From positions 1 through 55,585 of the forward strand of contig DDWZ01000025.1 in the NCBI GenBank assembly GCA_002347095.1: a stretch of 55,585 bases of DNA, written 5' to 3'. Shown here one piece after another: positions 9,175-46,819 of the stretch (positions are counted from its first letter, which is position 1; each line of letters starts with the position of its first letter). The stretch is from Desulfobulbaceae bacterium UBA2273 (GTDB lineage: Bacteria; Desulfobacterota; Desulfobulbia; Desulfobulbales; Desulfurivibrionaceae). The notes beneath the pieces were generated by a model that was given only the letters and a program-made list of their open reading frames with translations, ran no database searches and had not been told where the DNA came from. A program made the position numbers and the translations under genes.

Positions 9175-10221
9175 TTAAAAAGTCCAGTGTTTTTTTGCCG
9201 CAGCCAGGGCCGCATCCAGGGCGGGCAGGGGTTTTTTGCTCTGGGCTATGGCGGTGAATGCCTCGGTGGGCAGACCTCCCTTTCCGGCCATTTCGTGGAG
9301 GCTCGCCAGCACGCCATCGGCAAGCCCTTGCAGGAAGTAGCCCCCCTCCAGCACCAGCACCAGCCGTCCTTCGCAGAGTTCCGTGGCCAGATCGACCAAA
9401 ATTTTGGTCATACAGGCAAACCCGGCGGTGGTTACACCCATACCGCCCAAGGGATCGGAGACATGGGTGTCGTACCCGGCGGAGACCATGATGCAGTCCG
9501 GCCTGTACTGGCGGGCGACCGGAGCAACCAGTTCGGTCATGATCCTGGCGAAGTCCTGATCTCCCTGGCCGCCTGGCAGCGGGACGTTGAGAGTGTACCC
9601 CTCGCCCTTGCCCGCGCCGGTTTCCTTGAGGGCGCCGGTTCCCGGGTAATGCGGATACTGGTGGGTGGAGCAATAGAACACCTGGTCGGTGTCGTAAAAG
9701 GCGTTTTGGGTGCCGTTGCCGTGGTGCAGATCCCAGTCGAGGATGAAGATCCGCTCCATGCCGAGATGCTTCAGGCCATAGCGGGCGCCGATGGCGATAT
9801 TGTTGAACAGGCAAAAGCCCTTGGCGCGGTCCGCTTCGGCATGGTGTCCGGGCGGGCGCACCAGGGCCGCGGCATTGTCCGCCTTACCCGCGGCCACCAG
9901 CTTGAGGCCGGTGATAACCGCGCCCGCGGCGAGAACCGCCGCCTCGTAGGAGCGCGGCGAGGTGTGGGTGTCCGGGTCAAGCACGTCGAACTGCTTGCCC
10001 GCCGTCTCGGCCACCCGTTCGATATGCTCGGCAGTGTGGTTTGCGGCTAGATCCGCGTAGCTCGCGGGCTCGCATTCGGGATAGAAAAAGGTTTCAGCTT
10101 CTTCCGGCCGGGCAAGGGCCTGGTAGATGGCGCTCAAGCGCTCCGGGCTTTCCACATGGTCGTAGCCCGGATCGTGTTCCAGAAAGAGCGGGTCTTTCAG
10201 GACCGCGGTTTTTCGGAGCAT
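9175..10221 (-). CDS. Histone deacetylase family protein (AcuC/HDAC-like)
   Basis: 348-residue zinc amidohydrolase of the arginase-deacetylase fold. It has the hallmark RPPGHHAE, FNNIAIGARY, DWDLHHGNGTQ (metal and catalytic residues) and VSAGYDTHVSDPLGGM, all intact. Bacterial members remove acetyl groups from lysine, polyamines or other acylated amines; which substrate applies here cannot be told. The ATG at 10221 has AAGGAG 8 bp upstream. That ribosome site directly abuts the palindromic repeat at 10237-10289, which separates it from the 5-formyl-THF cyclo-ligase gene. Confidence 0.9.
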   Translation of the reverse strand: MLRKTAVLKDPLFLEHDPGYDHVESPERLSAIYQALARPEEAETFFYPECEPASYADLAANHTAEHIERVAETAGKQFDVLDPDTHTSPRSYEAAVLAAGAVITGLKLVAAGKADNAAALVRPPGHHAEADRAKGFCLFNNIAIGARYGLKHLGMERIFILDWDLHHGNGTQNAFYDTDQVFYCSTHQYPHYPGTGALKETGAGKGEGYTLNVPLPGGQGDQDFARIMTELVAPVARQYRPDCIMVSAGYDTHVSDPLGGMGVTTAGFACMTKILVDLATELCEGRLVLVLEGGYFLQGLADGVLASLHEMAGKGGLPTEAFTAIAQSKKPLPALDAALAAAKKHWTF

Positions 10222-10236
10222 GGTGTTTTTCTCCTT

Positions 10237-10289
10237 AGGAGCCGTTACGAAAGAATCTGTACTTTCTTGACCCTTTCGTTACGGCTCCT
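10237..10289. repeat. Palindromic repeat, GGAGCCGTTACG family, copy 1
   Basis: AGGAGCCGTTACGAAAG (10237-10253) is repeated as a perfect 17-bp reverse complement at 10273-10289 around a 19-bp centre. A close relative with the same AGGAGCCGTTACG arms lies at 46164-46228, and a looser one at 27091-27140. It occupies almost the whole gap between the cyclo-ligase and deacetylase genes, and there is no U-tract next to it. Confidence 0.8.
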
Positions 10290-10319
10290 TATGCTGTTTT
10301 GGCCATCATGATGACGACC

Positions 10320-10907
10320 TTATTGTATTACACGGCCAAATCTGATGGTGCGGGTTTCGGTGATAAGATAATCGAGCTGCTCATCGTGGCTTTCAAGGGG
10401 CACGGCCTCAACGACCTGCAGATCAAAGGCCAGGCCGATCCGCAGGGCTTGCGGCGCCGCGGAGTGCAAAAAACGGTCATAATAGCCGCCGCCGTAGCCC
10501 AGCCTTCCTCCCTGGGCGTCAAAGACGCTGCCCGGCGTCACCACCACCTCGATGGCGCCTGGGTCCACCAGGGGCAGAGTTTGCAAGGGCTCGGGAATGG
10601 AGCAATAGCCCGGAACAAGATCCCGGCCCGGATCGGTGATGGCATAGGGCAGCAGCCGGTGCTCCGCGGGCAGGGACAGCGGTACGCTTACGGTCACGCC
10701 TTTGGCGAGGCAATGCGCGATGAGGTTCAGGGTCTCCACCTCGCTGCGGAAGCTGACATAGGCAAAAACATGGCGGGCGCCGGCAAACTCCTGCAGGGCC
10801 AGGAGACGTTCGGTAACGGCCAGGCTTTTTTGTTGCCTTTCCTCCGGGGAAAGGGTATCGCGGGCGGCCATAATTCTGGCGCGCAGGGCGCTTCGTGTCT
10901 CACGCAT
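10320..10907 (-). CDS. ygfA: 5-formyltetrahydrofolate cyclo-ligase
   Basis: 195 residues. This ATP-dependent enzyme converts 5-formyl-THF to 5,10-methenyl-THF. Diagnostic parts are the early basic stretch (RSALRARIMAARDTLSPEER), the substrate loop VVTPGSVFDAQGGRLGYGGGYYDRFL, and the C-terminal SHDEQLDYLITE. The ATG at 10907 has AGGAC upstream. In many bacteria this gene neighbours 6S RNA. The region upstream was examined and no convincing 6S closing stem was found. Confidence 0.92.
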   Translation of the reverse strand: MRETRSALRARIMAARDTLSPEERQQKSLAVTERLLALQEFAGARHVFAYVSFRSEVETLNLIAHCLAKGVTVSVPLSLPAEHRLLPYAITDPGRDLVPGYCSIPEPLQTLPLVDPGAIEVVVTPGSVFDAQGGRLGYGGGYYDRFLHSAAPQALRIGLAFDLQVVEAVPLESHDEQLDYLITETRTIRFGRVIQ

Positions 10908-33576: not shown

Positions 33577-33751
33577 TTTAGCAGGGTCTGCCAAGCGAGA
33601 TGGTCATGAGTGGGAATAGTCTCAGTTGCCGCTTTACCACGCCGTTTTTTTTGTGATACCATGGGGGCGGAATGATTTTTTGAGGGGCACCGGATTGTTG
33701 CCGACAAATCCTATGGGGAAAGGGGCTGCCGTGAAGGGTGGAGAGAAAAAT

Positions 33752-34990
33752 ATGCGGGATCTGGAGCTGGCCAACCGGCTTTTGGACAGTTTTTCCCGGA
33801 TTGCCGGGGTGATCAATGCGCCCCGCCTTGATTACCCAAGGCGTCTGGGCCGGATTCTTGAGGTTATTCTGGAGTATCTGGGAGTGGAGCAAGGCTCCCT
33901 CATGGTGCTTGAGCGCAAGAAATATCTGGTGGTCCGGGCGGCAAGCCGCGCCGAGCTCATCGGGTACGAGCAGACCATTGCAGATGAACGTTCCGTGGCC
34001 TCCTGGGTCGCCAGGCACCAGGAGCCTCTGTTTATCAAGGATATTTGCAAAGACAAACGCTTTGGCGGGCAATGCCGCGGCAAATACCGGCGCAATTCCC
34101 TGCTCTCCATGCCGATCCTCCATAAGGGCAAGGTGTTGGGCGTCATCAATGTGACCGACAAGATCGGGGACAAGGATCTGCTCAAGGAGGACATCACCCG
34201 TCTTTTTGACTTCAGCAGCGTCATCCTCTCCCTGCTTGTCCAGGAAAACCTGCAGCAAGATCTCCGGAGGCAGCAGCGCATTCTCCGGGAGCGCAACAAG
34301 GAGCTGCGGCATCAGGAGACCTTGCGGGCCGACCTCTCCCGCATGCTGATCCATGACCTCAAGGGCCCGCTTTCCGAGGTGGTGGCCAATCTCGACATCC
34401 TCTCCTACACCGTTTCCGAGGAAAACCGCGAGTTTCTGGAGTCCGCCCAAATGGGGTGCGACCGGGCGGTGCGCATGGTCTCGAACCTGGTGAGCATCGG
34501 CAAGATTGAAGACGGCAAGCTCACGCCCATCAAGGAGGTGGTCGCGGTCCGTCCCATGCTGGCCGAATGCCTGTGCAGCATCAAGGGCATGGCCAGGATC
34601 AAGGATATTGAACTGATCCTTGAGGCAGACGAGGATTTGCCGCGGATTGCCCTGGACCGGATCCTCATCCTGCGGGTGTTGCAGAACCTGCTCACCAATG
34701 CCTTGGGGTATTGCTCGAGCAACACCACCATCCGTTTCGGCTGTCGGCTGGTCCCGGGGAAAAAGCAGCTTGAATTTTATGTGCAGGACCAAGGCCCTGG
34801 CATCCCCGCCGCCAAGCACCGCACCATTTTTGAGAAATACGCCAGAATCTCCGACAAGCAGGATGCCCTGGTCGGCACCGGCCTTGGCCTCTATTTCTGC
34901 CGTTTGGCCGTGGAGATTCACCGGGGCCGCATCGGAGTCGAGAGCGAACCGGGGAAAGGGTCTCGTTTTTATGTCAGGTTGCCCCTGTAA
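33752..34990 (+). CDS. GAF-domain sensor histidine kinase
   Basis: 412 residues, soluble, no membrane helix. A GAF domain (about 15-165) has LEVILEYLGVEQGSLMVL and SLLSMPILHKGKVLGVINVTDK. The dimerisation helix holds the phospho-acceptor His in MLIHDLKGPLSEVVANL. The ATPase has the N box (LLTNALGYCSSN), G1 (DQGPGIP) and G2 (GTGLGLYFCRLAV). The ATG at 33752 has GGTGGAGAG upstream; longer in-frame starts reach back to 33626. It is followed after 39 bp by a receiver-TPR protein, its likely partner. The ligand of the GAF domain is unknown. Confidence 0.92.
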   Translation: MRDLELANRLLDSFSRIAGVINAPRLDYPRRLGRILEVILEYLGVEQGSLMVLERKKYLVVRAASRAELIGYEQTIADERSVASWVARHQEPLFIKDICKDKRFGGQCRGKYRRNSLLSMPILHKGKVLGVINVTDKIGDKDLLKEDITRLFDFSSVILSLLVQENLQQDLRRQQRILRERNKELRHQETLRADLSRMLIHDLKGPLSEVVANLDILSYTVSEENREFLESAQMGCDRAVRMVSNLVSIGKIEDGKLTPIKEVVAVRPMLAECLCSIKGMARIKDIELILEADEDLPRIALDRILILRVLQNLLTNALGYCSSNTTIRFGCRLVPGKKQLEFYVQDQGPGIPAAKHRTIFEKYARISDKQDALVGTGLGLYFCRLAVEIHRGRIGVESEPGKGSRFYVRLPL

Positions 34991-35029
34991 CGGAGAGCTG
35001 ACGGTTTTCAGCAAAGGGAAAGAAGTCGG

Positions 35030-36193
35030 ATGAAGCTTAAAGCGCCAAAAGACATGGTTTTTCTTGTCGTGGACGACATCGACAACATGCGCCGTTCGGT
35101 CAAGGCCATGCTGAAGCTGGTCCATTTCGGCAAGGAGTTTTACGAGGCGGCCAATGGGAGGGATGCCTGGAAGCTTCTGCAGACCGAGAATATCGTCATC
35201 GATTTCATCATCTGTGATTACAACATGCCCTATATGTCGGGCACAGAACTGCTGGGGTTGATCCGTTCCACCAAAAAATGGCGCGACATCCCCTTTCTCA
35301 TGGTCACCGCGGAAGCCAACATGGATATTGTCGCCGAAGCGGCGGAGCATGATGTTGATGCCTACATGACCAAGCCGTTTGTCACCGCGACCCTGGAGCA
35401 GAAGGTTATGGAGCTGTTGGGCCAGATCAACAACCCCTCGCCCTTCAACCAGTTGTTGCTCCAGGCGCGCACCCTTGATGAAAAGGGCGATCTTGACGGC
35501 GCCATTGCCAAGGCCACGGAGGCGGCCAAGATCAATGACCGCTCCTCCAAGCCCTACCGGGAGTTGGGGCGTCTCTTCGGGAAAAAGGGCGATCTGAAAA
35601 AAGCCCAGCTCTGCTTTGAAAAAGCGGTGGAGATCAACCGGCTCGATGTCAGTTCCTACCATGCCCTGGGCCAGATTTACTACCGTCAGGGCAAGATGGA
35701 AATGGCCATGGAAAATTTCAACCGGGCCATGGAGATCAGCCCCAGGCATGCGGACCGGGCCATGAATTTCGCCAAGCTGCTCATCAAGAAAAATCAGTTG
35801 CCCGAGGCGGAAAAGGTTCTGCGGTTGGTCCTGAAAACAAAGAGCAACGATATCGACTTCAAGGAGGATATTGCCGAGACCTGTATCGGCTGCGGCCTGG
35901 GGGATCTGGCGGTCAAATGCTATCGCGAGGTGCTCAAGGCGGACCCGGAGCGTATCTATCTGAATAAAAAAATCGGCATGGCCCTGTTTACCGCGGGCGA
36001 TGCCAACGAAGCAGTCAAGGTGCTTGAAAAGGCGGCGGAGAAGACCTCCGACGACATCGAGTTGTTCCTGGTCCTGGGCAAGGCCTATTATGCCCTGAAG
36101 CAACTGGTTCGGGCCGACCAATGGGTCTCGAAGGTTCTCCGGATCGATCCCGGCCATAAGGAAGCCCGCTCCATCCTGGATAAATGTCTGTGA
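35030..36193 (+). CDS. Response regulator with C-terminal TPR repeats
   Basis: 387 residues. The CheY-like receiver (about 8-130) has VVDDIDNM, the phospho-Asp in FIICDYNMPYMSG, Thr in MVTAEA and Lys in YMTKPF. The rest (about 140-387) is a run of about seven tetratricopeptide repeats with the A-x-x-x-A pattern (for example AYYALKQLVRADQWVSKVL). The output is therefore protein-protein interaction rather than DNA binding. It is co-oriented with the GAF kinase (39 bp upstream) and the zinc-knuckle membrane protein (45 bp downstream), suggesting one pathway. Confidence 0.93.
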   Translation: MKLKAPKDMVFLVVDDIDNMRRSVKAMLKLVHFGKEFYEAANGRDAWKLLQTENIVIDFIICDYNMPYMSGTELLGLIRSTKKWRDIPFLMVTAEANMDIVAEAAEHDVDAYMTKPFVTATLEQKVMELLGQINNPSPFNQLLLQARTLDEKGDLDGAIAKATEAAKINDRSSKPYRELGRLFGKKGDLKKAQLCFEKAVEINRLDVSSYHALGQIYYRQGKMEMAMENFNRAMEISPRHADRAMNFAKLLIKKNQLPEAEKVLRLVLKTKSNDIDFKEDIAETCIGCGLGDLAVKCYREVLKADPERIYLNKKIGMALFTAGDANEAVKVLEKAAEKTSDDIELFLVLGKAYYALKQLVRADQWVSKVLRIDPGHKEARSILDKCL

Positions 36194-36238
36194 GCCAGGG
36201 TTGGGCGTTCTCCGACAAGAAACAGGCTGATTAATCCA

Positions 36239-38332
36239 ATGGCAGCAGAATTCACCACTGTCCTCGCCCTTCAGGCTCTGAACTACCAGGGCCAGAATAT
36301 CCTGGGAGAAAACTGGGCGGATTTTCTTTTGGATCTGCGCCAGTCTCTCGCCGTAAAAGGGACGGAAGATCCCGCCAGCACGGAATCCCTGCTCCTTTTC
36401 TCCTTCCCGCAGCCGGATGTCGCCTGTATCGCGCTTTTGGAAAATCTGGGCAGGCTGAAAAAGGTGTACGAGTGGAAGGAGAACTTCGGCCCTCTGCCCC
36501 TGCACATTGTCCTGCACCTTGAAAAAGAGGGCGAACCGCCCGGCCCGGTGCATGACCCGGCGGCGACCTTCTGGGATCTTCTCCACTACGAGCAGCCCTA
36601 TGCCACCTCCTCCTTGAAACAGCAGTGGGCCGAGGGCCAGGCCGGGGAAAATTCGTTGTCCCACACCTTTGCCGAGGCTGGCAACAACTTATATCTGCTC
36701 TCCTTGTCCATTCCGGAAATTCCCCGGATCGAGATTTTTCCCCATCGCGCGCTTCCCCTTGCCGGCTCCTTTTCGCCCTGTTTCTACTGCGGGATGACCA
36801 CCCACCGTCCGGCGGACTGCCCTGGAAAGATGCTGACCATGGCCACGCAGGGAATCTCCCTGGCCGGCTATCTGCCTCTTGAAAAGTTGAGCGAACTCTT
36901 TGGCAAGGCCATGTCCGCCCAAGAGAAGTTGGCCAATACCATGGCGGCCGGTCTCACCGTGTCCCAGGTCAGGCAGAGCCCCATTCTTCAGGTGTATCTG
37001 GCCTATTTTGACCTGAATCTGGTCTATCAGCCCCGGTTTTTGTGGAACATAGCCTTTAACAGCAGTTCCAAATGGGAGGAATTGACCAAGCCGGACATGG
37101 TTTCGGTGGACAGTCACAGCCTGCATCTGGGTCTTGATTGTCTGCGGGTGGGCCAGCACGCCCAGGCCGAGGATCTCTTTGTCGAGGAAAGCAGGCGGCC
37201 CAAGGGAAAGAATTTTTATGCCACAATCGGCCGCGCCTTTATCGCCCTGGAGCTCGAACGCGACAATGATCTGGAACATTTTCTGGAACATGCCGCGATC
37301 ATGGCCAACTCGGACAAGGAAAAGATCTATATCGCCCTGTTGCAGTCCAGATACTATGCCCTTCGCAAGGACCACTGGAAGGCGGGTCATGCCCTGGACA
37401 CTGTTTTCAGTGTGCGCCGTGATCTGTCCGAGGCTCTGTATCGCCAGGTTCAGCTCATGGTTCAGGGCGATATGTTGGAAAAAAGCCTCCGGCAGCTCCG
37501 AGCCCTGGTTGTCGATCGCAAAGAGCTGTTCATTGCCGCGCTCATGGATCCGCAACTGCTTGCTGTTGCCGGGCCGGTTGAGGATCTCCTTTCCGTTCGG
37601 CTGCAGGTCCAGCGGCAGGAGGCCGAAGAAAACCTGGTGAAGGCGCAGGAGGTGTGTCAGGATCTCCAGACCTGGTTTGCCGAGGAGGCAAGCCCGGCAA
37701 CCCTGTTTGCCGATCTCTCCGACCTGGAAAAGCAGTTTGCCCAGGGAAGCTACTACGACCTGCTGGAAGTGGCGCATAAGGCACAGGCATTGTTGCGCGC
37801 CAGCTACCGCCTCCAGGAAAATACCCTTGACGCCTTGCAAGCCGATATTGCCGGAATGGCGGCCACCTGGGACTCCTTCCGGCGCTACTGGCAGGAGTAT
37901 CCCTACCAATCTTTTTTCGTGAATTTCCAGGGAATACTCGAGGACGGCAGAAAAAAGCTCAATGAAATAGAAGGGTTGGCCAAGCAGAACATGCATGGCC
38001 AACTGTACCAGACTATTCAGGAAAGGCTGGTGCAGGTCCGGGAGAGTTGCGACGCTTTGAAGCCGCTTGCCGCGAGGATGGCCTGGGTACGAATTGTCTG
38101 TGACGGAGCAAAGCTCTTTGGCCGTAAATTGCTCATCACCGAGATGGCTTTGCTGGGGCTGGGGGCCTTGCTCTTTCCCCTTCTGGCCTTCTGGCTGGGT
38201 GGCGACTCCGGCGGGATGATCGAACTGCTCACAAATTCCTGGCTGCAGCGGCAGGCGCTGCTTATTGTCACCCTGTTTGTCGCGCCGCTTTTTGCCTTGG
38301 CGCAGACGCTCTGGGAGATGATGGACACCTAG
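36239..38332 (+). CDS. Large unknown membrane protein with CCHC zinc-knuckle signature
   Basis: 697 residues; family not recognised. No signal peptide. Residues 1-170 look like a small alpha/beta domain (LLLFSFPQPDVACIALLENL, PLHIVLHLEK). Residues 181-194 read CFYCGMTTHRPADC, which fits Cys-x2-Cys-x4-His-x4-Cys exactly (Cys181, Cys184, His189, Cys194). A helical TPR-like middle (about 290-450) and a coiled-coil-prone stretch (about 455-625) follow. Two membrane helices are at about 640-657 and 677-693, so the bulk should be cytoplasmic on a C-terminal anchor. It is the third gene after the GAF kinase and receiver-TPR genes. tRNA-Arg lies just downstream on the other strand. Confidence 0.8.
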   Translation: MAAEFTTVLALQALNYQGQNILGENWADFLLDLRQSLAVKGTEDPASTESLLLFSFPQPDVACIALLENLGRLKKVYEWKENFGPLPLHIVLHLEKEGEPPGPVHDPAATFWDLLHYEQPYATSSLKQQWAEGQAGENSLSHTFAEAGNNLYLLSLSIPEIPRIEIFPHRALPLAGSFSPCFYCGMTTHRPADCPGKMLTMATQGISLAGYLPLEKLSELFGKAMSAQEKLANTMAAGLTVSQVRQSPILQVYLAYFDLNLVYQPRFLWNIAFNSSSKWEELTKPDMVSVDSHSLHLGLDCLRVGQHAQAEDLFVEESRRPKGKNFYATIGRAFIALELERDNDLEHFLEHAAIMANSDKEKIYIALLQSRYYALRKDHWKAGHALDTVFSVRRDLSEALYRQVQLMVQGDMLEKSLRQLRALVVDRKELFIAALMDPQLLAVAGPVEDLLSVRLQVQRQEAEENLVKAQEVCQDLQTWFAEEASPATLFADLSDLEKQFAQGSYYDLLEVAHKAQALLRASYRLQENTLDALQADIAGMAATWDSFRRYWQEYPYQSFFVNFQGILEDGRKKLNEIEGLAKQNMHGQLYQTIQERLVQVRESCDALKPLAARMAWVRIVCDGAKLFGRKLLITEMALLGLGALLFPLLAFWLGGDSGGMIELLTNSWLQRQALLIVTLFVAPLFALAQTLWEMMDT

Positions 38333-38364
38333 CGGGAGGGCTTTTCAAGCCGATGTGTGCAGTG

Positions 38365-38441
38365 TGGTGCGCCCGAGAGGATTCGAACCTCTGACCTACG
38401 GCTTAGAAGGCCGGTGCTCTATCCGGCTGAGCTACGGGCGC
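38365..38441 (-). tRNA. tRNA-Arg (anticodon TCT)
   Basis: On the minus strand the 7-bp acceptor stem GCGCCCG / CGGGCGC, D arm (GCTCAGCCGGATAGAGC), anticodon arm with loop CTTCTAA, T arm (AGAGGTTCGAATCCTCT) and an encoded CCA end are all present. The anticodon TCT (38405-38407 in plus coordinates) reads AGA/AGG arginine codons. Confidence 0.97.
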
Positions 38442-38515
38442 CCATGTGCGACAGATATTAGAACGATCGGGCCAAGAAAGCAATACCGTTTTCACCCGGC
38501 ATTGTGGGCCGCTGC

Positions 38516-40873
38516 CTACTCTTGCTTCTCCACCTCTTTCCAGACCGGCCCCTTGGCGGTGTCGACCACTTCGATGCCCTTTTTCGCCAATTCCTGGCGC
38601 ACCCCGTCCGCCTTGTGCCAATCTTTTTGTTTCCTCGCCTCTTCCCGGTCGCGGATCAGCTTGTCGATCTCCGGGGCCAGGGGACATTCCTCAAGCCGCA
38701 TGATTCCCAGCACGGAATTGATCCGGCGCAGGGCCTCCAGGATATAATCCTTCTGCTCGCGGTCAAGGAGCCCCTGGCTCAGGATCGGGTTGGTCTTTTT
38801 AATAAAATCGAACAGCGCGGCAAAGGCTTTGGAAACATTGAGATCATCGTCCAGGGCTTTGAAAAAGCGGTCCTCCATGTCGGAGAGATAGGCGGCGACC
38901 TCGGCGTGGGGCAGCCCCGGCGGCAGGCAGAGCAGCTTGCCGACAAAGCCGTCCAAGCGCCGCAGGTTCTTGCGGGCCGCGTCCAGGCTGCGGAAGGAGA
39001 AATTGATCGGCTTGCGGTAATGGGTCCGGATCAGGAAATAGCGCATCTCCCTGCCGGTGTAGCCCTTGTCCAGGACATCGCGCAAGGTGATGAGGTTCCG
39101 GTTGTCCGCGGACATCTTCTTGCCATCCACCAGCAGCAGTTCGCTGTGCAGCCAGAAATTGGCCAGGGGCTTGCCGGTGAGCGCCTCGGCGATGGCGTTT
39201 TCGTTCTCGTGGTGGGGGAAGAGCAGATCGCGGCCGCTGGTATGGATATCCATGGTTTCCCCGAGCAGGTCAAGGGTCATGGCCGCGCATTCGATATGCC
39301 AGCCGGGGCGCATGTTGCCCCACTCGGTCTGAAAAAAGATGCCGCTTTTCAGCTCGCTCAAGGTCGAACGCTTGAGCAGGGTGAAGTCAACCGGGTTTTC
39401 CTTTTCATAGTCGTCCAGATCAACGGTTTTCCCCACCTGGATCTTGCTCAGATCCACGCCGGACAGCCTGCCGTATTTAGCGAATTTGGAGATGTCAAAA
39501 TAGATGGAGCCGTGTTTTTCGTAGGCATACCCCTTGTCCACCAGTTTTTGGGCCAGAGCGATCATGCCCGGGACATGCTCGGAGGCCCGAGGGTATCCGG
39601 CGGCTTCGAGCATCTCCAGCGCAGCCATGTCCTGTTTGAAGTCCTGGATATATCTGCCGGTGAATGCGGCGAGGCTCTCTTTATTGTTGCCCGCGCCCTG
39701 GATGGTGTTGTCGTCCAGGTCGGTGAAATTCATATAGAATTTCACCTGATACCCTTTCAGCACCAGCACTCGATGCACGAGATCGGCAACCATGAAGCGG
39801 CGGCAATGGGCCAGGTGGGCCAGTTCGTGGGCCGTGGGGCCGCAGGCGTAAAAAGTCACGGTATCCGGGACAATGGGCCGAAACACCTCTTTTTTCCGGG
39901 AGAGGGTATTGAAAAAACGCAGCTCCGCCTGCTGGGACTCCTCCGTTTCCTGCTTGGTGAAAAGCTCGGTGGACAGATACTTCTCGCCGCCATCGGGGAA
40001 GATGGCCACGAGCACGCCTTCCTTCAACTGGGCGGCGCGGGTCAGGGCCGCGGACATGGCGGCGCCGGAGCTCATGCCGGCGAAAATCCCCTCTTTGCGG
40101 GCCAGGAGACGAACGGAAGTGAACGCCTCCTCATCCGGGATGTTGATGATCTGGAAGGGGAGTTTTTTGTCAAAGATCCCTGGCGTGTAGGACTCCTTCA
40201 TGTTCTTGAGCCCTTGCAATTTGTGGCCGAGAAAGGGCTCCACCGCGGTAATGCGCACCTCGGGATGGTGCTCGCTGAAATACCGGCACAGCCCCATGAC
40301 CGTGCCGGAGGTGCCCAGGGTGGCGACGATATCCGTCACCCTGCCCCCGGTCTGCTCCCAGATCTCCGGGCCGGTTGTCTTGTAGTGGGTCAGCCAGTTG
40401 GCCGCATTGTTGAACTGGTCGGTGAGGAAATAGCGATCCGGATACTGGCGGGCCAGGGCATAGGCCTGCTCGATGGCCCCATCGGTGCCGCGTTTGCCGG
40501 GGGTGAGCAGGATCTCGGCGCCAAAGGCCTCCATGATCTTGCGCCGTTCGATGGATGCTGATTCCGGCATGATCAACTGGCATTTATAGCCCTTGACCGC
40601 GCAGACCATGGCCAGCCCGATGCCGGTGTTGCCGCTGGTCGCCTCCAGCACGATCTTATCCGGGGTCAGTTCGCCCTCGGCCTCGGCGGTTTCAATCATG
40701 TTCAGGGCCACCCGGTCCTTGACCGAGCCGCCGGGATTGAAGGCCTCAAGCTTGGCGTAGATCGCCACCTTCTTCAAGGGATTCAACCGTTTGATCGGCA
40801 CCAGCGGGGTGTTGCCGATCTTGTCGAGGATGGAGTGTGTTGCCGGTTTTTTGGGGGTGTGTGATGGCGTCAT
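38516..40873 (-). CDS. Cysteine synthase - cysteinyl-tRNA synthetase fusion protein
   Basis: 785 residues in one uninterrupted frame. Residues about 12-305 are O-acetylserine sulfhydrylase: PLP Lys52 in FNPGGSVKDR, TSGNTG (79-84), GTSGT (187-191) and PDGGEKYLST. Residues about 320-785 are a class I CysRS. YACGPT (Cys344), GWHIEC (Cys529), His554 and Glu558 keep the spacing of the catalytic zinc ligands. WHIECAAMTLDLL, DIHTSGRDLLFPHHENE and the anticodon-binding tail (DREEARKQKDWHKADGVRQEL) are present. Two signatures differ from standard CysRS: HIGH is HLAH (353-356) and KMSKS is KMSAD (586-590). A fused enzyme could make cysteine and charge it in place, or could have another ligase role. Followed only by tRNA-Arg; its own promoter region lies upstream. 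Confidence 0.93.
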   Translation of the reverse strand: MTPSHTPKKPATHSILDKIGNTPLVPIKRLNPLKKVAIYAKLEAFNPGGSVKDRVALNMIETAEAEGELTPDKIVLEATSGNTGIGLAMVCAVKGYKCQLIMPESASIERRKIMEAFGAEILLTPGKRGTDGAIEQAYALARQYPDRYFLTDQFNNAANWLTHYKTTGPEIWEQTGGRVTDIVATLGTSGTVMGLCRYFSEHHPEVRITAVEPFLGHKLQGLKNMKESYTPGIFDKKLPFQIINIPDEEAFTSVRLLARKEGIFAGMSSGAAMSAALTRAAQLKEGVLVAIFPDGGEKYLSTELFTKQETEESQQAELRFFNTLSRKKEVFRPIVPDTVTFYACGPTAHELAHLAHCRRFMVADLVHRVLVLKGYQVKFYMNFTDLDDNTIQGAGNNKESLAAFTGRYIQDFKQDMAALEMLEAAGYPRASEHVPGMIALAQKLVDKGYAYEKHGSIYFDISKFAKYGRLSGVDLSKIQVGKTVDLDDYEKENPVDFTLLKRSTLSELKSGIFFQTEWGNMRPGWHIECAAMTLDLLGETMDIHTSGRDLLFPHHENENAIAEALTGKPLANFWLHSELLLVDGKKMSADNRNLITLRDVLDKGYTGREMRYFLIRTHYRKPINFSFRSLDAARKNLRRLDGFVGKLLCLPPGLPHAEVAAYLSDMEDRFFKALDDDLNVSKAFAALFDFIKKTNPILSQGLLDREQKDYILEALRRINSVLGIMRLEECPLAPEIDKLIRDREEARKQKDWHKADGVRQELAKKGIEVVDTAKGPVWKEVEKQE

Positions 40874-41022
40874 GGCAGGGACTCGGTTGTGTGGGTCATC
40901 ATCCCGAAAAACGGGAAAACAGCAGGGTCAATTTTCAACGATATCGGTAGAATACAACATAACCCCCGGGCAAACCACCCAAATTATCGGCCGCGACGCC
41001 CTGAGGTGCTGCCCGAAAGGCA

Positions 41023-41055
41023 TAAAAAAAGGCAAGCCCCGGAAGGAGCTTGCCT
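41023..41055 (-). terminator. Intrinsic terminator of the dsr operon
   Basis: On the minus strand AAGGCAAGC (41055-41047) pairs with GCTTGCCTT (41036-41028) around a 10-nt loop. The U-tract continues as complement of 41023-41029. It lies 32 bp after the dsrP stop. Confidence 0.88.
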
Positions 41056-41086
41056 TGAATCAACCATGCCGCAGGAAAAAACGGTT

Positions 41087-42256
41087 TTAGGCTTCCTTTT
41101 CCAGCTTGACGCTGATCGCCACCTTGTAGAGGATGGAGAGAATGAAGAAGCCCGTGGCCCAGATGGCGGCGGTGATGCCGAGTTCCTGGACGCTGGGAAC
41201 ATACTCGGTTACGTACTCAAGCGGGCTGGGGACAAAGCCGCCGAGAACCAAGCCGAGGCCCTTGTCGATCCAGAAGGCGATGAAGATGAGGAGGCAGGAA
41301 ATCACCAGCAGCCCATCGGATTGCTTGGCCCTGGAAACAAAGATCAACGCGATGCCGGCCAGACCCATGATCACCGAGGCGCGCATGAAGGGAACCAGAT
41401 TGTTGTATACCTGGTCGCCATGGCCAAGGCCCCAGAAGAGGTAGTCCAGGGTATGCATGTGGCCGGGGATCTGGCTGTAATAGGCAACAAAAAATTCACA
41501 GCCCAGGAAGAAAAAGTTGAGCATGGCGGCATAGCCGATGATGGTCACCAGCTTGTCCTGCGCCTCGCGGCCCACGTCGAATTTGGTGGTCTTTTTGAGG
41601 ATCATGGCGATGACCATCAGCAGAGCCGGGCCGGCGGCAAAGGCGGAGGCCAGAAAACGCGGGGCGAGAATGGCGGTGAGCCAGAAATGTCGGCCCGGCA
41701 GACCGCAGTACAGAAAAGCGGTAACGGTGTGGATGCTGATCGCCCAGGGGATGGAGAGGTAGATAAAGGGCTTGATCCACTTGGGATATTTGATTCCCTT
41801 GTATTCGGACTGCAATACCACCCAGCCGCAGAGGATGTTGAGGAACAGATAGCCGTTCAAGACGATCATATCCCAGAACAGCATGGAGTTGGGGGTGGGA
41901 TGAAGCAGAACGTTCAAGGCGCGCATGGGCTGGCCCAGGTCGGCGATAATGAACATCAGGCACATGGCGATGGCGGCAATGGCCATGAACTCGCCGAGGA
42001 TGACGATGCGGCCGAAGGCCTTGTAGTTATGGATGTAATACGGCAGCACCAGCATCAGGCCGCCGGCTGCCACACCGACCAGAAAGGTGAACTGGGAGAT
42101 GTACACCCCCCAGGTCACATCCCGGCTCATGCCGGTGATGCCAAGGCCGTAGTTGAATTGCTGGACATAGCAGAGACCGCCCACACCCATTATGGAGAGC
42201 AGGAAGAGCATCCATACCCAGTACCCCGTGCTTCCTTTAAATGCTTTTTCAATCAT
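41087..42256 (-). CDS. dsrP: DsrP, NrfD-type quinone-interacting membrane subunit
   Basis: 389-residue integral membrane protein with about ten helices, of the NrfD/PsrC/HmcC type. It starts STGYWVWMLFLLSIMGVGG and includes GVYISQFTFLVGVAAGG and MRALNVLLHPTPNSMLFWDM (quinone-site region). In DsrMKJOP it exchanges electrons between the menaquinone pool and the DsrO/DsrJ module. It is the last gene of dsrMKJOP, 11 bp after dsrO and followed by a terminator. Confidence 0.95.
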   Translation of the reverse strand: MIEKAFKGSTGYWVWMLFLLSIMGVGGLCYVQQFNYGLGITGMSRDVTWGVYISQFTFLVGVAAGGLMLVLPYYIHNYKAFGRIVILGEFMAIAAIAMCLMFIIADLGQPMRALNVLLHPTPNSMLFWDMIVLNGYLFLNILCGWVVLQSEYKGIKYPKWIKPFIYLSIPWAISIHTVTAFLYCGLPGRHFWLTAILAPRFLASAFAAGPALLMVIAMILKKTTKFDVGREAQDKLVTIIGYAAMLNFFFLGCEFFVAYYSQIPGHMHTLDYLFWGLGHGDQVYNNLVPFMRASVIMGLAGIALIFVSRAKQSDGLLVISCLLIFIAFWIDKGLGLVLGGFVPSPLEYVTEYVPSVQELGITAAIWATGFFILSILYKVAISVKLEKEA

Positions 42257-42267
42257 GATCTTTCACC

Positions 42268-43092
42268 TCAAATAATATAGAAGAGGGATGGATGTGTCCC
42301 TATTGCAGGATTCCGCTGGATGGTAAAGGAAGTCTTCAACACCTGGCTGATCTCGGAGTTGGGATCATTCATGTCGCCGAAGACAAGGGCCTTGGTTTGG
42401 GCTGCGACTTCAACACAGGCAGGAATCTGGCCGATGGCCAGCCGCTCGGTGCAGAAATTGCATTTTTCCACAACCCCGCGCATCCGGGTGGGGTATTTGG
42501 GGTTTTCCGCCTTGATAAAGGGCTGGCCATTGGCATCCTTGCCCCGGGGGTCGCGCCAGTTGAAGCTCCGGGCGCCATAGGGGCAGGCCGCCATGCAGAA
42601 CCGGCAGCCGATGCAGCGGTGGTAGTCCATGCCGACGATGCCGTCCTTTTTCTTATAGGTGGCCTTGGTGGGGCAGGCCCGGACGCAGGGCGGGTTGTCG
42701 CAGTGGTTGCACAGGGTCAGGATGGGCATGTCCTTGAGCGCATCCGGCCGTTTGTATTGGCTCTCCGTCGGAAAGGTGTGCTCGTAGGATTCGATCCAGA
42801 TCCACTTGATCTCATCCTTCCTGTTCCCGAAATCCGGCACATTGTGGATGGTGTGGCAGGCAGAGACGCATTGTTCCGCCAGTCCGGGATTTTCGGTGAA
42901 TTTCTTGACATCAATGACCATGCCATAGCGCTTGCCGGTTGGGGCCGCGGCCCCATGCCCGCCTGCGGCGGCTTGCCCGGCGGAGGCGATGGCCTCGCCT
43001 TTGAGCAGGGTATTAAAAGCCGAGGGTGCGGCAATGCCGGCAATGGCGGTGAGCCCGGCAATTTTCAAAAAATCTCTTCTTTTGCTGTCCAT
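42268..43092 (-). CDS. dsrO: DsrO, periplasmic ferredoxin-like iron-sulfur subunit
   Basis: 274 residues. A Tat signal SKRRDFLKIAGLTAIAG leads a four-cluster ferredoxin. Cysteine groups are visible in CVSACHTIH, CNHCDNPPCVRACP, CIGCRFCMAACPYG and CNFCTERL. It transfers electrons between the cytochrome DsrJ and the membrane subunit DsrP on the periplasmic side. It lies 1 bp after dsrJ and 11 bp before dsrP. Confidence 0.95.
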   Translation of the reverse strand: MDSKRRDFLKIAGLTAIAGIAAPSAFNTLLKGEAIASAGQAAAGGHGAAAPTGKRYGMVIDVKKFTENPGLAEQCVSACHTIHNVPDFGNRKDEIKWIWIESYEHTFPTESQYKRPDALKDMPILTLCNHCDNPPCVRACPTKATYKKKDGIVGMDYHRCIGCRFCMAACPYGARSFNWRDPRGKDANGQPFIKAENPKYPTRMRGVVEKCNFCTERLAIGQIPACVEVAAQTKALVFGDMNDPNSEISQVLKTSFTIQRNPAIGTHPSLFYII

Positions 43093-43093
43093 G

Positions 43094-43474
43094 TTACATC
43101 GCCTCCTTCGGCTGGAGATGACAATCCCAACAATACGGTTTCACGGAGGTATAGTTGTGGCACGCGTCACAGAACTTCTTCTTGTCGCTGTGACATTTCA
43201 TGCAGCCATTCTGCAGGCTCCGTACATATTCGGTGCCGTTGGGGGTTTTCCCGGTGCGGGCGCCGCCTTCACGCAGGATGTCATCGCGCCACTGGTTGAG
43301 CAGCACCATGTGCGAGGTGCGCATCTCCTGAGTCGGCGCAACACACTCCGTGTAGTCCTTTGGTTTTTCAGGCTTGGGCATTTTGCTCGCTTCCCCGGAT
43401 TTATACCAGATCGGGGATGTCATGAGGCCCAAGAACAGTATCAACGCAGGTATGATTCTTCCTTTCCCGTACAT
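43094..43474 (-). CDS. dsrJ: DsrJ, triheme cytochrome c
   Basis: 126 residues with an uncleaved-looking N-terminal membrane helix (about 7-22) and three CxxCH haem sites: CMKCH, CDACH and CWDCH. The stretch ECVAPTQEMRTSHM holds the cysteine and histidine that serve as unusual haem ligands in known DsrJ. Length is typical. It sits between dsrK and dsrO in the operon. Confidence 0.94.
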   Translation of the reverse strand: MYGKGRIIPALILFLGLMTSPIWYKSGEASKMPKPEKPKDYTECVAPTQEMRTSHMVLLNQWRDDILREGGARTGKTPNGTEYVRSLQNGCMKCHSDKKKFCDACHNYTSVKPYCWDCHLQPKEAM

Positions 43475-43479
43475 GGCTA

Positions 43480-45135
43480 TCAGCCCTCCATTCCTGCAAG
43501 TGGCTCAAAACGGAGACCCGTTTCACGCTCTTTTTCTCCCTCCATGACCAGGGCGTTGCCGACCAGTTCGGACACGCCGCAGACCTCCACATCGGGATTC
43601 CAGTAGTTGTTCAGGCTCGTCAAGGTGGCGCGGTCGATGGCGCAGACACAGGAGAGCATATTGACCTCATGCTTCTCGCGCACATATTTGACCGCGTTGG
43701 CCCTCGGCAACCCTGCCCGCATTCTCAGCTCCATGATCTCATCGGTGTTCAAACCGGTGCCGCTGCCGCAGCAGAAGGTTGATTCACGGATGGTGTTTTC
43801 CGGCATCTCATGGAAATTATTGCACACATTCTTCAAGACATACCGCGGCTCCTCGAGCAAGCCCATGGCGCGAGCCGGGTTGCAGGAGTCATGGTAGGTT
43901 GCGATCCGGTGATCATTGCGCTTCGGGTCAAGCTTCAGCTTGCCGTGCTTGATCAGGTCGGCGGTGAACTCGCTGATATGGACCATCTTGGTGGAGGCCG
44001 CGTTGTCGAAGCGGGTTCCGGTGATCGGCGAGGTGGGCACTTGCAGGAAGTCGGCCGGGCCGTTCATGGTGTCCATGTACTGATGGAGCACCCGCCACAT
44101 GTGGCCGCATTCGCCGCCGAGGATCCACTTGACTCCCAGACGCTTGGCTTCGGCGTACATCTTGCCGTTGAGCTTCTTCATCATTTCGTTGTTGGTGAAG
44201 AGGCCGAAGTTGCCGCCCTCCGAAGCATAGGTGGACCAGGTGTAGTCCAGGCCGATGTGGTGGAAGAGCAGCAGGTAGCCCATGGCCGTGTAGATGCCGG
44301 GCTCGGCGAAGACATCCGCGGACGGGGTGATGAACAGCACTTCGGCGCCCTTGCGGTTGAAGGTCGGCTCGACGCGGATACCGGTGATTTCCTCGATATC
44401 GTCGCAGAGATACACGATGTTGTCTTTAAAGGTGTGGGGCTGGAGCCCCATGTGGTTGCCGGTGCGGTTGGAGTTGGCTGCCGGCTCCATGATCCAGTTG
44501 ATATTCACGCCCACCAGATGCAGCAGTTCGCGGCCGAGCATGGTTATTTCGGCGGTATCGATACCGTAGGGGCAGAACACCGAGCAACGGCGGCACTCGG
44601 TGCATTGGTAGTAGTACATGAACCATTCCTTCAGCACCCCGAAGGTCATGGGCCGGCCACCGGCCATTTTGCCCAGGATCTTGCCGCCCAGGGTGAAGTC
44701 GTTGCGGTATACGGAACGCAGAAGCTCGGCCCGGAGAACCGGCATGTTCTTGGGATCGCCGGTGCCCAGGAAGAAGTGGCACTTATCCGCGCAGGCGCCG
44801 CAACGGACACAGCAATCCATGAAGATTTTCAAGGAACGGAATTTATCGAGACGCTCCTTCAGGCCATTGAGAATGATCTTTTCCCAGCCCTCGGGCAGGT
44901 TCCAGTCGTCGCTCTCAGGATCCCAGTCGCGCGGTTGACCAAACAGCCCAGGATGGCTGGGGAAGGTCTTTTGCGTGTGGTATTCAATGATTTCCTTTTT
45001 TGCGGGGTAGGCATAGTTCCCAGGTTTGAATGTGGCCGGGACATCCCACCAATCATTTTTCGGAACAGCCCCTGTCATGAGGGATGGACCCTTCGCAACG
45101 CTTACACCGAGTTTGTCTGCTTTTATGATCGCCAT
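43480..45135 (-). CDS. dsrK: DsrK, HdrD-like iron-sulfur catalytic subunit
   Basis: 551 residues. Two [4Fe-4S] motifs are CCVRCGACADKCHFF and CTECRRCSVFCPYG. The C-terminal CCG domain for a noncubane cluster is HDSCNPARAMGLLEEPRY and FCCGSGTGLNTDEI. DsrK is the cytoplasmic subunit that, with DsrM, is thought to reduce the DsrC trisulfide during dissimilatory sulfite reduction, or the reverse. It is 5 bp after dsrM. Confidence 0.96.
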   Translation of the reverse strand: MAIIKADKLGVSVAKGPSLMTGAVPKNDWWDVPATFKPGNYAYPAKKEIIEYHTQKTFPSHPGLFGQPRDWDPESDDWNLPEGWEKIILNGLKERLDKFRSLKIFMDCCVRCGACADKCHFFLGTGDPKNMPVLRAELLRSVYRNDFTLGGKILGKMAGGRPMTFGVLKEWFMYYYQCTECRRCSVFCPYGIDTAEITMLGRELLHLVGVNINWIMEPAANSNRTGNHMGLQPHTFKDNIVYLCDDIEEITGIRVEPTFNRKGAEVLFITPSADVFAEPGIYTAMGYLLLFHHIGLDYTWSTYASEGGNFGLFTNNEMMKKLNGKMYAEAKRLGVKWILGGECGHMWRVLHQYMDTMNGPADFLQVPTSPITGTRFDNAASTKMVHISEFTADLIKHGKLKLDPKRNDHRIATYHDSCNPARAMGLLEEPRYVLKNVCNNFHEMPENTIRESTFCCGSGTGLNTDEIMELRMRAGLPRANAVKYVREKHEVNMLSCVCAIDRATLTSLNNYWNPDVEVCGVSELVGNALVMEGEKERETGLRFEPLAGMEG

Positions 45136-45140
45136 TGTTC

Positions 45141-46139
45141 TTATTCCTTCTCAACGGGTATTCCGCCTTCCTTCATGAACTCCCTGAACTCGTCCTCGTA
45201 TCCAGCGTAGGAGTGCGGCTTGATGTTGGGGTCATTCCACGGATTGATGTGCCGGACCATCCGGCTGTTGTTGATCATGTTCCGGGTGGGGCTCATGAAG
45301 ACACCGGCCATGTGCATCAGCTTGCTGAAGGGAAAGTAGATCAGCAGGGCGCAGACCAGGAAGACATGGATGAAAAAGATCGGGCTGATCTGCCCGGCGG
45401 CAATGGCCGGAGCAAAGGTGGTCAGGCCGTGGGTCAACTGTTTGATCGCCACCACATCGGCCCGAAAGACATAGCGCATCAGGATGCCGGTGACGGCGAT
45501 GCCGAAGATCAGGAACAGGGGGAAGTAATCGGCGGGCAGCGAGATGTAGCGGATGTTGGAAAGCATCACCCTGCGGAGGAACAAAAAGGCGATGGCGCCG
45601 AGGAAGATGGCGTCGGTCTGGTAGAATACCGGGGCGCCGATCTGCAAAAAGCCGTCGCCGAACTCAAGGGCGGCGACAAAGCCGGGGACCGGGTCTATAA
45701 ACAGCCGCATATGGCGGAGCACGATGACCAGGAAACAGTAGTGGAACAGCAGGGCGAACAGCCAGAGAAACTTGCTGGAGCCGTAGACCAGCTTGGGGCC
45801 CTCATGCATCTCCGCCTTGGTGTTGCGGAACAGGGAGCGGAACAGAAAGACCTCCAGGATCATTCTGGCGATGACTCCGAGTTTGGTGGAGGGGCAGTCG
45901 ATCTTGTTCTGCTTGATCCAGGGCAGGGAGTTGGCCTGGCCACAGGTGGTCGGAATCCGGAAGGGAACGGGAGATTTGGCCCATTGCATTACGCGATAGG
46001 CAAACCCTCCCAAGAAGAGGGCAAAGGCGAGATAGGGCAAGACGATCCCCATCAAAGCCTGCCCACCCGGCACCTGGGCGGCCACCAGGCCAACCGCGAT
46101 AAGCGCCAACACTGCGATGAATGGATTCAGGATTCTCAT
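45141..46139 (-). CDS. dsrM: DsrM, membrane cytochrome b subunit
   Basis: 332 residues, NarI-like cytochrome b with about six membrane helices. Histidines suitable for haem b are in ALLFHYCFLVIVLRHMRLF and LLIYFPFSKLMHMAGVF. The C-terminal tail SPTRNMINNSRMVRHINPWNDP is the usual DsrM ending. It passes electrons between menaquinol and DsrK. A 65-bp palindromic repeat separates it from the upstream RsbRD-type gene, so the two may share or split a transcript. Confidence 0.95.
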   Translation of the reverse strand: MRILNPFIAVLALIAVGLVAAQVPGGQALMGIVLPYLAFALFLGGFAYRVMQWAKSPVPFRIPTTCGQANSLPWIKQNKIDCPSTKLGVIARMILEVFLFRSLFRNTKAEMHEGPKLVYGSSKFLWLFALLFHYCFLVIVLRHMRLFIDPVPGFVAALEFGDGFLQIGAPVFYQTDAIFLGAIAFLFLRRVMLSNIRYISLPADYFPLFLIFGIAVTGILMRYVFRADVVAIKQLTHGLTTFAPAIAAGQISPIFFIHVFLVCALLIYFPFSKLMHMAGVFMSPTRNMINNSRMVRHINPWNDPNIKPHSYAGYEDEFREFMKEGGIPVEKE

Positions 46140-46163
46140 GTACTGTTACCTCGCATCATGTTT

Positions 46164-46228
46164 AGGAGCCGTTACGGAATAACCCGGGTTGTTAACCTGC
46201 TGTTTTAGGCTATTCCGTTACGGCTCTT
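46164..46228. repeat. Palindromic repeat, GGAGCCGTTACG family, copy 2
   Basis: AGGAGCCGTTACGGAATA (46164-46181) is matched by its reverse complement at 46211-46228 with one mismatch. It shares the first 13 bp of its arms with the copy at 10237-10289. It lies between the RsbRD-type gene and dsrM, with no U-tract on either side. Confidence 0.8.
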
Positions 46229-46276
46229 TATGCCGGCCTTGCCAGGAAAGCGGCAAGGCAGTTTGTGTTACAACGC

Positions 46277-46819
46277 TTACACGTTAATGGTTTTCAGCTC
46301 CGCCTTGGGGGCCATTTCGTCCATCAGCTTCGAAGGGCAACCGGAGTCCGTGGTGATGTGATTTCCACTTTTAATCTCCGCGATCCGGGTTTGATAGAGC
46401 CTTTCCCGGCTGGCGACATACAGGTCGAACATGGTGTAGGCCAGGATGTCGGCCTTTTCTTCAAAGGCATGCCAGCCTTCAAGGTCGGCGACATTGTCCT
46501 TCCTGCAGAAATCCTTTACGACCCTCTTCAAGATGTATGCCATGGAAACCGCTTCGGAAGGATTAAATGTCTGCACCGCCCGGATCCGGACCATCTGATC
46601 AAGGCAGGCGACGATCCCTTCCGGCTCGTTTTTTTCGAAGAGCAGGGCATACACCGCCCACAGGCTGCTCTTCACCGCATACCCCACCGGGTTGGCAAAC
46701 TGGTCCTTCTCTTTTTTAAAGAACCGGGAACCATCCTCCGGGTAGGTGGTCAGAACCTGATCGACCCAACTGTCCAGAATCTCGCCTTTTCGGTCGACAA
46801 GCAGCTCTGCAAGCAACAT
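46277..46819 (-). CDS. RsbRD N-terminal domain protein associated with dsrMKJOP
   Basis: 180-residue soluble helical protein. MLLAELLVDRKGEILDSWVDQVLTTYP and FANPVGYAVKSSLWAVYALLF are typical of the RsbRD N-terminal domain, a globin-like four-helix fold that senses small signals in stressosome proteins. The STAS half of RsbR proteins is absent. Stand-alone genes of this type are a recurrent leader of dsrMKJOP in sulfate reducers, so a regulatory or maturation role for the complex is plausible but unproven. The ATG at 46819 has GGTGAAGG upstream. Confidence 0.83.
   Translation of the reverse strand: MLLAELLVDRKGEILDSWVDQVLTTYPEDGSRFFKKEKDQFANPVGYAVKSSLWAVYALLFEKNEPEGIVACLDQMVRIRAVQTFNPSEAVSMAYILKRVVKDFCRKDNVADLEGWHAFEEKADILAYTMFDLYVASRERLYQTRIAEIKSGNHITTDSGCPSKLMDEMAPKAELKTINV

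Follow-up and report, generated by a model that had tools for sequence, protein, structure and literature searches.

The window, a 55,585-nucleotide contig (DDWZ01000025.1) of Desulfobulbaceae bacterium UBA2273, encodes a protein in which a cysteine synthase is followed by a module derived from cysteinyl-tRNA synthetase (CysRS). The chances are about even that this fusion is a cysteine synthase with a tRNA-Cys-binding, likely regulatory, pseudo-synthetase module, making free cysteine likely from O-phosphoserine. Taken together, three observations favour a cysteine synthase carrying a tRNA-binding pseudo-synthetase: the ATP motifs of the CysRS half are lost, a separate CysRS is present, and the anticodon contacts are kept even in fusions without the zinc cysteines. 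In addition, genomes with the fusion as their sole synthase yielded no serine acetyltransferase (CysE). The coordinates of all features are listed in Table 1.

Pfam domains in the fusion are PALP (residues 16-294, 251 bits), tRNA-synt_1e (331-634, 313 bits) and, further toward the C-terminus, DALR_2 (669-724) and the anticodon domain CysS_C (732-775). The protein exceeds the NCBIfam cut-offs for cysS (TIGR00435, 419 bits against 340) and cysKM (TIGR01136, 362 bits against 344); the cut-offs of the narrower cysK and cysM models are not reached. The closest solved structures are CysRS 3tqo, 8qhp and 1li5, and CysM 2v03 and 2bhs. The first-pass annotation described CysK and CysS in one frame. The single frame of 785 amino acids stands, but the N-terminal half is closer to CysM (OASS-B; top PDB matches 2v03/2bhs) than to CysK. 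The AlphaFold2 model has a mean predicted local distance difference test score (pLDDT) of 85.7 and a predicted template modelling score (pTM) of 0.57; thus each half is modelled fairly well, but the model does not fix how they sit relative to each other. In Foldseek, the C-terminal half of the model matched CysRS structures, including 1U0B with tRNA-Cys, and the N-terminal half matched CysM.

The gene is a natural fusion, as had been proposed, and not an assembly accident. From a contig scan, 80 of 168 related loci (L010-L089) were kept, and 79 of them have single-frame homologues. The homologue in L062 is in two frames, and that in L057 ends at a contig edge. The phylum sample adds single-frame homologues from 120 further genomes, among which that in L250 ends at a contig edge. 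Because they recur across the related loci and the phylum sample, a frameshift artefact is excluded. The related loci are labelled Deltaproteobacteria, Desulfobacterales, Desulfobulbaceae and similar, or are metagenome-assembled genomes of Proteobacteria/Pseudomonadota. The phylum sample consists of 296 genomes with at least 90% completeness, assigned to Desulfobacterota from such labels; at a threshold of E <= 1e-110, the fusion was found in 123 of them, representing 84 of 199 genera. At this threshold, the fusion had no match in the four other genomes sampled from the family of the window.

Motifs were counted in one fusion per genome, with residues of the window protein matched to E. coli CysRS by alignment. 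Of the 123 genomes, G011 (frame broken) and G062 (fusion split between contigs) were left out, and 121 fusions remained, namely 120 loci and the window protein; 120 full-length fusions were counted, as L250 was dropped. The standard CysRS reference has 31 sequences, since truncated L083_CysS and std_L117 were dropped from 33. L062 was dropped from the 80-locus alignment, and one alignment of 23 standard rows had one row out of frame.

HLAH in place of HIGH and KMSAD in place of KMSKS, both noted in the first-pass annotation, were confirmed in the window protein. The HGGG loop, the adenosine loop of CysRS, is also replaced, by HTSG. The loss is conserved across the fusions. K.SKS is seen in 0/120 full-length fusions versus 29/31 standard CysRS, and the relaxed K.S[KR]S in 28/120 versus 29/31. 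HIGH, searched as H.G[HN], is present in 11/120 versus 31/31, and the HGGG loop keeps its GG in 12/120 versus 31/31. No full-length fusion has HIGH and KMSKS together. The motifs form a gradient from HLGN/KMSRS (L162) through HLAH/KMSAD (window) to proteins in which neither motif is recognizable (L134-L137). Most probably, judging from these residues, the CysRS half is unable to make cysteinyl-AMP.

A second, standard cysS, whose possible presence had been raised earlier, was found in the genome of the window (3.2 Mb, 97.8% complete). It lies at C3:2986-4446 with its motifs intact (PF01406: 462 bits, versus 316 for the fusion), and a stand-alone CysK lies at C8:130616. The cysS model matched all 296 genomes, in 290 of them above the cut-off. 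In each of the 123 fusion genomes there is evidence of a CysRS apart from the fusion, in 117 by score (best cysS E below 1e-150, while the scored fusions reach at most 431.8 bits, E 2e-129) and in six by inspection. In these six, the separate CysRS is whole in G093 and G141, in pieces in G037, G062 and G119, and a 100-residue fragment in G020. With a custom model trained on the 31 standards, the best of the 121 fusions (516.6 bits) and the lowest standard (540.5 bits) are close without overlap. L083 contains on one contig a near-canonical fusion (229-2628) and, about 7 kb away, a standard cysS (9261-10607) that is truncated by the locus end. In a tree built without the motif columns from the 31 standard CysRS and 101 fusions (thinned at 80% identity), all fusions lie on one side of a single branch and the standards on the other (SH-like approximate likelihood ratio test, SH-aLRT, 100).

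An active bifunctional enzyme, in which cysteine from the N-terminal half is handed to the C-terminal half and charged onto tRNA-Cys, is highly improbable. It would fit the full-length CysRS with its anticodon domain, the window protein scoring above the cysS cut-off, and near-canonical members such as that in L162. Nevertheless, no fusion keeps K.SKS, GG is lost in 108/120, the motif is wholly replaced in many, and a CysRS apart from the fusion is found in all 123 fusion genomes. For these reasons the channelling to tRNA charging suggested in the first-pass annotation is not supported.

The anticodon-binding domain shows the opposite pattern of retention. Residues R743, R747, W752, D756, R759 and D771 of the fusion align with R423, R427, W432, D436, R439 and D451 of E. 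coli CysRS. R743, R747 (Lys in six), D756, R759 and D771 are kept in 120/120 full-length fusions, among them the 31 whose zinc cysteines are changed, and position 752 is aromatic in 120/120. In E. coli CysRS, R427 and D436 are reported to hydrogen-bond G34, W432 to stack on G34, and D436 and R423 to form a water network (PMC12684709). Three of the five kept residues are thus reported tRNA-Cys G34 contacts. The GCA anticodon is described as a major cysteine identity element (PMC9976931). Positions at which at least 29 of the 31 standard CysRS agree are retained in the fusions at 0.46 for the KMSKS loop, 0.69-0.73 for the catalytic parts, 0.88 for the stem and 0.97 for the anticodon domain, which has seven such positions. 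Overall, the anticodon domain is roughly as variable in fusions as in standard CysRS; pairwise identity over it is 0.415 in zinc-kept fusions, 0.491 in zinc-changed fusions and 0.445 in standard CysRS.

It is quite unlikely that the CysRS half is a decaying passenger, merely a scaffold or dimerization domain. Strong divergence in some lineages is in line with decay, as in the G037 fusion (141.5 bits on cysS), but the specific anticodon contacts are found in 120/120, and 36 positions of the C-terminal half are identical in at least 118/120 fusions. R359 (window 39797-39799) is among them, being present in 120/120 fusions versus 0/31 standard CysRS. P346 (window 39836-39838) is found in 120/120 fusions versus 9/31 standard CysRS.

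The four zinc ligands reported in the first-pass annotation are all kept in the window protein, where C344, C529, H554 and E558 align with C28, C209, H234 and E238 of E. coli CysRS. Across the fusions, C344/C529/H554 are kept in 89/120 and all four ligands in 55/120. The zinc cysteines are changed in 31/120; both are lost in 20, and C344 alone in 11, mostly to Asp. His554 (window 39212-39214) is present in 120/120, including fusions without both zinc cysteines. On the tree, the zinc label needs at least four changes, three of which are forced by well-supported branches. A cysteine sensor, in which free cysteine bound at the zinc site of the CysRS half exerts feedback on the synthase with tRNA uninvolved, is unlikely but finds some agreement here: C344/C529/H554 are kept in most fusions, and Asp in place of C344 may still hold metal. 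Thr384 and Trp525, at cysteine-contact positions of CysRS, are kept in 74/120 and 118/120 full-length fusions. Against such a sensor, both zinc cysteines are lost in 20 fusions and all four ligands are retained in just 55, while the anticodon residues are kept in all.

The other earlier suggestion, a repurposed ligase like MshC, would make a low-molecular-weight thiol or peptide from self-supplied cysteine. MshC is a precedent as a CysRS paralogue, the zinc cysteines are kept in most fusions, the fold matches MshC 3c8z (TMt 0.86), and a RimK-like ATP-grasp gene is near 4/80 related loci. On the other hand, the MshC model TIGR03447 gives 198 bits versus 485 required, and its match ends at residue 695, before the anticodon domain, which is the best-kept part. 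Among the annotated neighbour clusters there is no widely conserved ligase-like gene. Given the altered or missing ATP motifs, the loss of both zinc cysteines in 20/120 and a best-kept domain that lies beyond the MshC match, such a ligase is not supported and is hardly to be expected. The observation in the first-pass annotation is sound, and neither of its two inferences fits well.

The cysteine synthase half retains its catalytic residues, as had been noted: Lys52, by family the predicted Schiff-base lysine of the pyridoxal phosphate (PLP) domain, occurs together with Asn82 in 120/120. In the loop of residues 216-235, Lys223 aligns with Arg210 of E. coli CysM. K223 and N224 are present in 121/121 fusions, and in the same genome set 16 of 17 stand-alone CysK/M show a gap there. 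The 17th (G112) has Lys at this site, and G112 is the sole CysE-less genome with a second synthase. CysM Arg210 is reported to help select O-phosphoserine in some microorganisms (PMC3805590). Since E. coli CysM has Arg at the site, the basic residue shared by all fusions is not sufficient for an O-phosphoserine sulfhydrylase. The CysM class by itself does not reveal the donor either, as CysM of C. jejuni is reported to take O-acetylserine and not O-phosphoserine (PMC9855970).

The metabolic context was surveyed in 33 fusion genomes, picked by hand and mostly of few contigs, with CysK/M called at E <= 1e-50 and CysE (TIGR01172) at E <= 1e-15. In 16 of the 33, the fusion is the only CysK/CysM match. 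CysE was detected in 0/16 of these sole-synthase genomes versus 16/17 of the others (Fisher p 1.5e-8, kinship ignored), and it adjoins a stand-alone cysK in 14 of the 16 CysE-positive genomes. Where it is the only synthase, the fusion thus seems to work without the known source of O-acetylserine. From these patterns, it is probably a CysE-independent cysteine synthase using O-phosphoserine.

tRNA-binding residues beside a PLP enzyme with a likely O-phosphoserine substrate recall the SepRS/SepCysS route, and also fit tRNA-dependent chemistry, in which the PLP half converts, or the C-terminal half clears, mischarged tRNA-Cys such as phosphoseryl- or seryl-tRNA-Cys. This is very unlikely. SepCysS was above the cut-off in 0/33 genomes, with four weak partial matches (SepRS was not searched for), no Sep-tRNA maker is known in fusion genomes, and free amino acids are the known substrates of CysK-type sites.

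Under the preferred reading of a synthase with a tRNA-binding pseudo-synthetase module, the N-terminal half would combine sulfide and an activated serine into free cysteine. The activated serine is most likely O-phosphoserine, because the fusion is the sole synthase in genomes without detectable serine acetyltransferase. The C-terminal half would have descended once from CysRS, most probably losing cysteinyl-AMP formation, and would have been retained because tRNA-Cys recognition via the anticodon persists. In many lineages, it may also bind cysteine through zinc. Binding of tRNA-Cys, free or charged and perhaps with cysteine, would alter the activity of the synthase half, and cysteine supply would thereby follow demand at the tRNA. 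Feedback inhibition normally acts on serine acetyltransferase. The fusion route would bypass this point and replace it with control by tRNA-Cys; in genomes without the enzyme, it would be sensible to regulate the synthase itself. We infer both the regulation and its direction from these features. In its most specific form, the presence or charging state of tRNA-Cys on a dead synthetase domain would directly switch the synthase, giving feedback to a CysE-free, O-phosphoserine-based pathway across much of Desulfobacterota; we regard this form as possible, somewhat short of probable.

Several points weigh against this reading. tRNA-Cys binding and the loss of charging are predictions from sequence. 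With pTM at 0.57, the model traces no allosteric path. Among the 28 fusions with K.S[KR]S, nine have HIGH and one GG too, so that weak adenylation may persist in some lineages. The anticodon residues may have been retained for fold stability, and in the divergent L132 the Pfam anticodon-domain match is 19.8 bits, below the cut-off of 23. None of the CysE matches in the 33 genomes reaches the own cut-off of TIGR01172, though the model found 16; the model thus fits the phylum poorly, and divergent CysE may be missed. Another CysK/M is present in 17/33 genomes, including that of the window (CysE in 16), so that the fusion need not be the main cysteine route there. In G011, a sole-synthase, single-contig genome, the fusion is frame-broken (C1:2736757-2739059). 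The lack of a tRNA-Cys gene pattern that tracks the fusion was also counted here but is neutral.

The tRNA-Cys pattern search matched 188 of the 296 genomes, and two matches were found only in three fusion genomes (G000, G014 and G252) and one without the fusion (G162). A dedicated tRNA-Cys for the fusion was therefore rejected. The genome of the window (G000) has two different tRNA-Cys(GCA) genes, at C26:118857-118928 and C27:489-560 (L274, L260), one at the very contig end. The other four sampled family members have one pattern match each, and the second copy in G000 could be a mis-binned contig end.

Table 1. Features of the fusion gene and its upstream neighbourhood in the window.
Feature	Position	Strand	Basis or remark
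Cysteine synthase/putative pseudo-CysRS fusion CDS	38516..40873	(-)	785 aa, ATG start, single frame without internal stop
CysM/CysK-type PLP domain, residues 14-306	39956..40834	(-)	Domain and structure matches; Lys52 and Asn82
Lys52 of PLP domain	40718..40720	(-)	120/120 full-length fusions
Loop GHKLQGLKNMKESYTPGIFD, residues 216-235	40169..40228	(-)	Lys223 at 40205-40207
CysRS-like catalytic region, residues 318-634	38972..39922	(-)	Pfam, alignment, Foldseek
Zinc ligand Cys344	39842..39844	(-)	Alignment to E. coli CysRS
HLAH replacing HIGH, residues 353-356	39806..39817	(-)	Alignment
Stretch with zinc ligands Cys529, His554, Glu558	39200..39289	(-)	Alignment to E. coli CysRS
HTSG replacing HGGG, residues 544-547	39233..39244	(-)	Alignment
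KMSAD replacing KMSKS, residues 586-590	39104..39118	(-)	Alignment
Anticodon-binding domain, residues 736-780	38534..38668	(-)	Pfam and alignment to E. coli CysRS
Intrinsic-terminator-like hairpin	41029..41056	(-)	Between dsrP and fusion
dsrM-K-J-O-P-like genes	41087..46139	(-)	Upstream of fusion, same strand; dsrP-like 41087-42256

The dsrP-like gene upstream has a homologue in L055 that passes the NCBIfam DsrP model NF045798; the remaining dsrMKJOP-like names are presumed from gene order. A DsrP homologue is near the fusion in 37/80 related loci (many contigs are short), and in only 2/120 loci of the phylum sample (L150 and L151; 2-4 kb flanks). The stretch holding the hairpin between dsrP and the fusion has nine terminator-like sites versus 3.3 expected. 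Membership in a dsrMKJOP operon was rejected on the 2/120 loci and the hairpin; these genes are neighbours in near relatives and give no functional clue. Other fusions lie near a damage-control phosphatase and MurJ, the RimK-like gene belonging to this neighbourhood, or near a macrodomain and a QueG-like protein.

Downstream, tRNA-Arg(TCT) lies about 75 bp from the fusion on the same strand (window 38365-38441, (-)); it is found within 250 bp downstream in 18 of the 56 related loci scanned (of the 80). An Rfam search for an RNA leader over 36000-46500 gave this tRNA-Arg and one opposite-strand match to it below the gathering score. Facing the fusion, window 33626-38332 (+) contains genes named by eye as histidine kinase-like, tetratricopeptide repeat response regulator-like and a further protein; homologues of all three are near the fusion in L012, L014, L016, L059 and L062.

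If true, the proposed control would tie tRNA to amino-acid synthesis directly through a protein, a connection usually made via riboswitches, T-boxes or end-product inhibition. It would also explain cysteine synthesis in a number of sulfide-rich anaerobes without recognizable serine acetyltransferase. Among the 120 matches listed, fusion proteins are labelled 'cysteine--tRNA ligase' or 'cysteinyl-tRNA synthetase' where named. The sequence features suggest that the proteins so labelled are not cysteinyl-tRNA synthetases, a point that bears on annotation and on metabolic models of sulfate reducers. Open full-text papers yielded no description of the fusion, closed journals being outside this coverage; the term "cysteine synthase" is absent from a review-like survey of how prokaryotes encode cysteine (PMC8762117).

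Compared with bacterial CysRS (TIGR00435; E. coli 1U0B/1LI5), the fusion shares the fold, the domain order, the zinc ligands in many members and the anticodon residues. In contrast, it lacks KMSKS in all 120 and HIGH and GG in most, it follows a cysteine synthase, and another CysRS is present. With CysM/OASS-B and O-phosphoserine sulfhydrylases, it shares the PLP domain, a basic residue at the CysM Arg210 site (Lys) and occurrence without detectable CysE, but it has a CysRS-derived C-terminal half of ~470 residues, and its donor is a prediction. MshC, the cysteine:GlcN-Ins ligase, is likewise a CysRS paralogue; it adenylates cysteine, and the match of the fusion to its model stops short of the anticodon domain. 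CysRS* of Desulfobacterales (Mukai et al. 2017b), a non-canonical CysRS in related bacteria, is reported to have no anticodon domain and to charge SelC* (PMC9437257), whereas the fusion retains the domain and has lost the charging motifs. The SepRS/SepCysS transsulfursome also joins O-phosphoserine, tRNA-Cys and cysteine formation, but through other proteins. The nearest precedent, by analogy, is HisZ, a HisRS paralogue with HisG as its partner, described as a synthetase paralogue that regulates a biosynthetic enzyme (PMC9437257). Both would be adenylation-less synthetase paralogues tied to amino-acid biosynthesis, as judged in the fusion by motif loss and the separate synthetase. The fusion differs in being class I, fused and equipped with an anticodon domain, and its regulation is proposed by analogy. 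HisZ is a separate subunit and belongs to class II.

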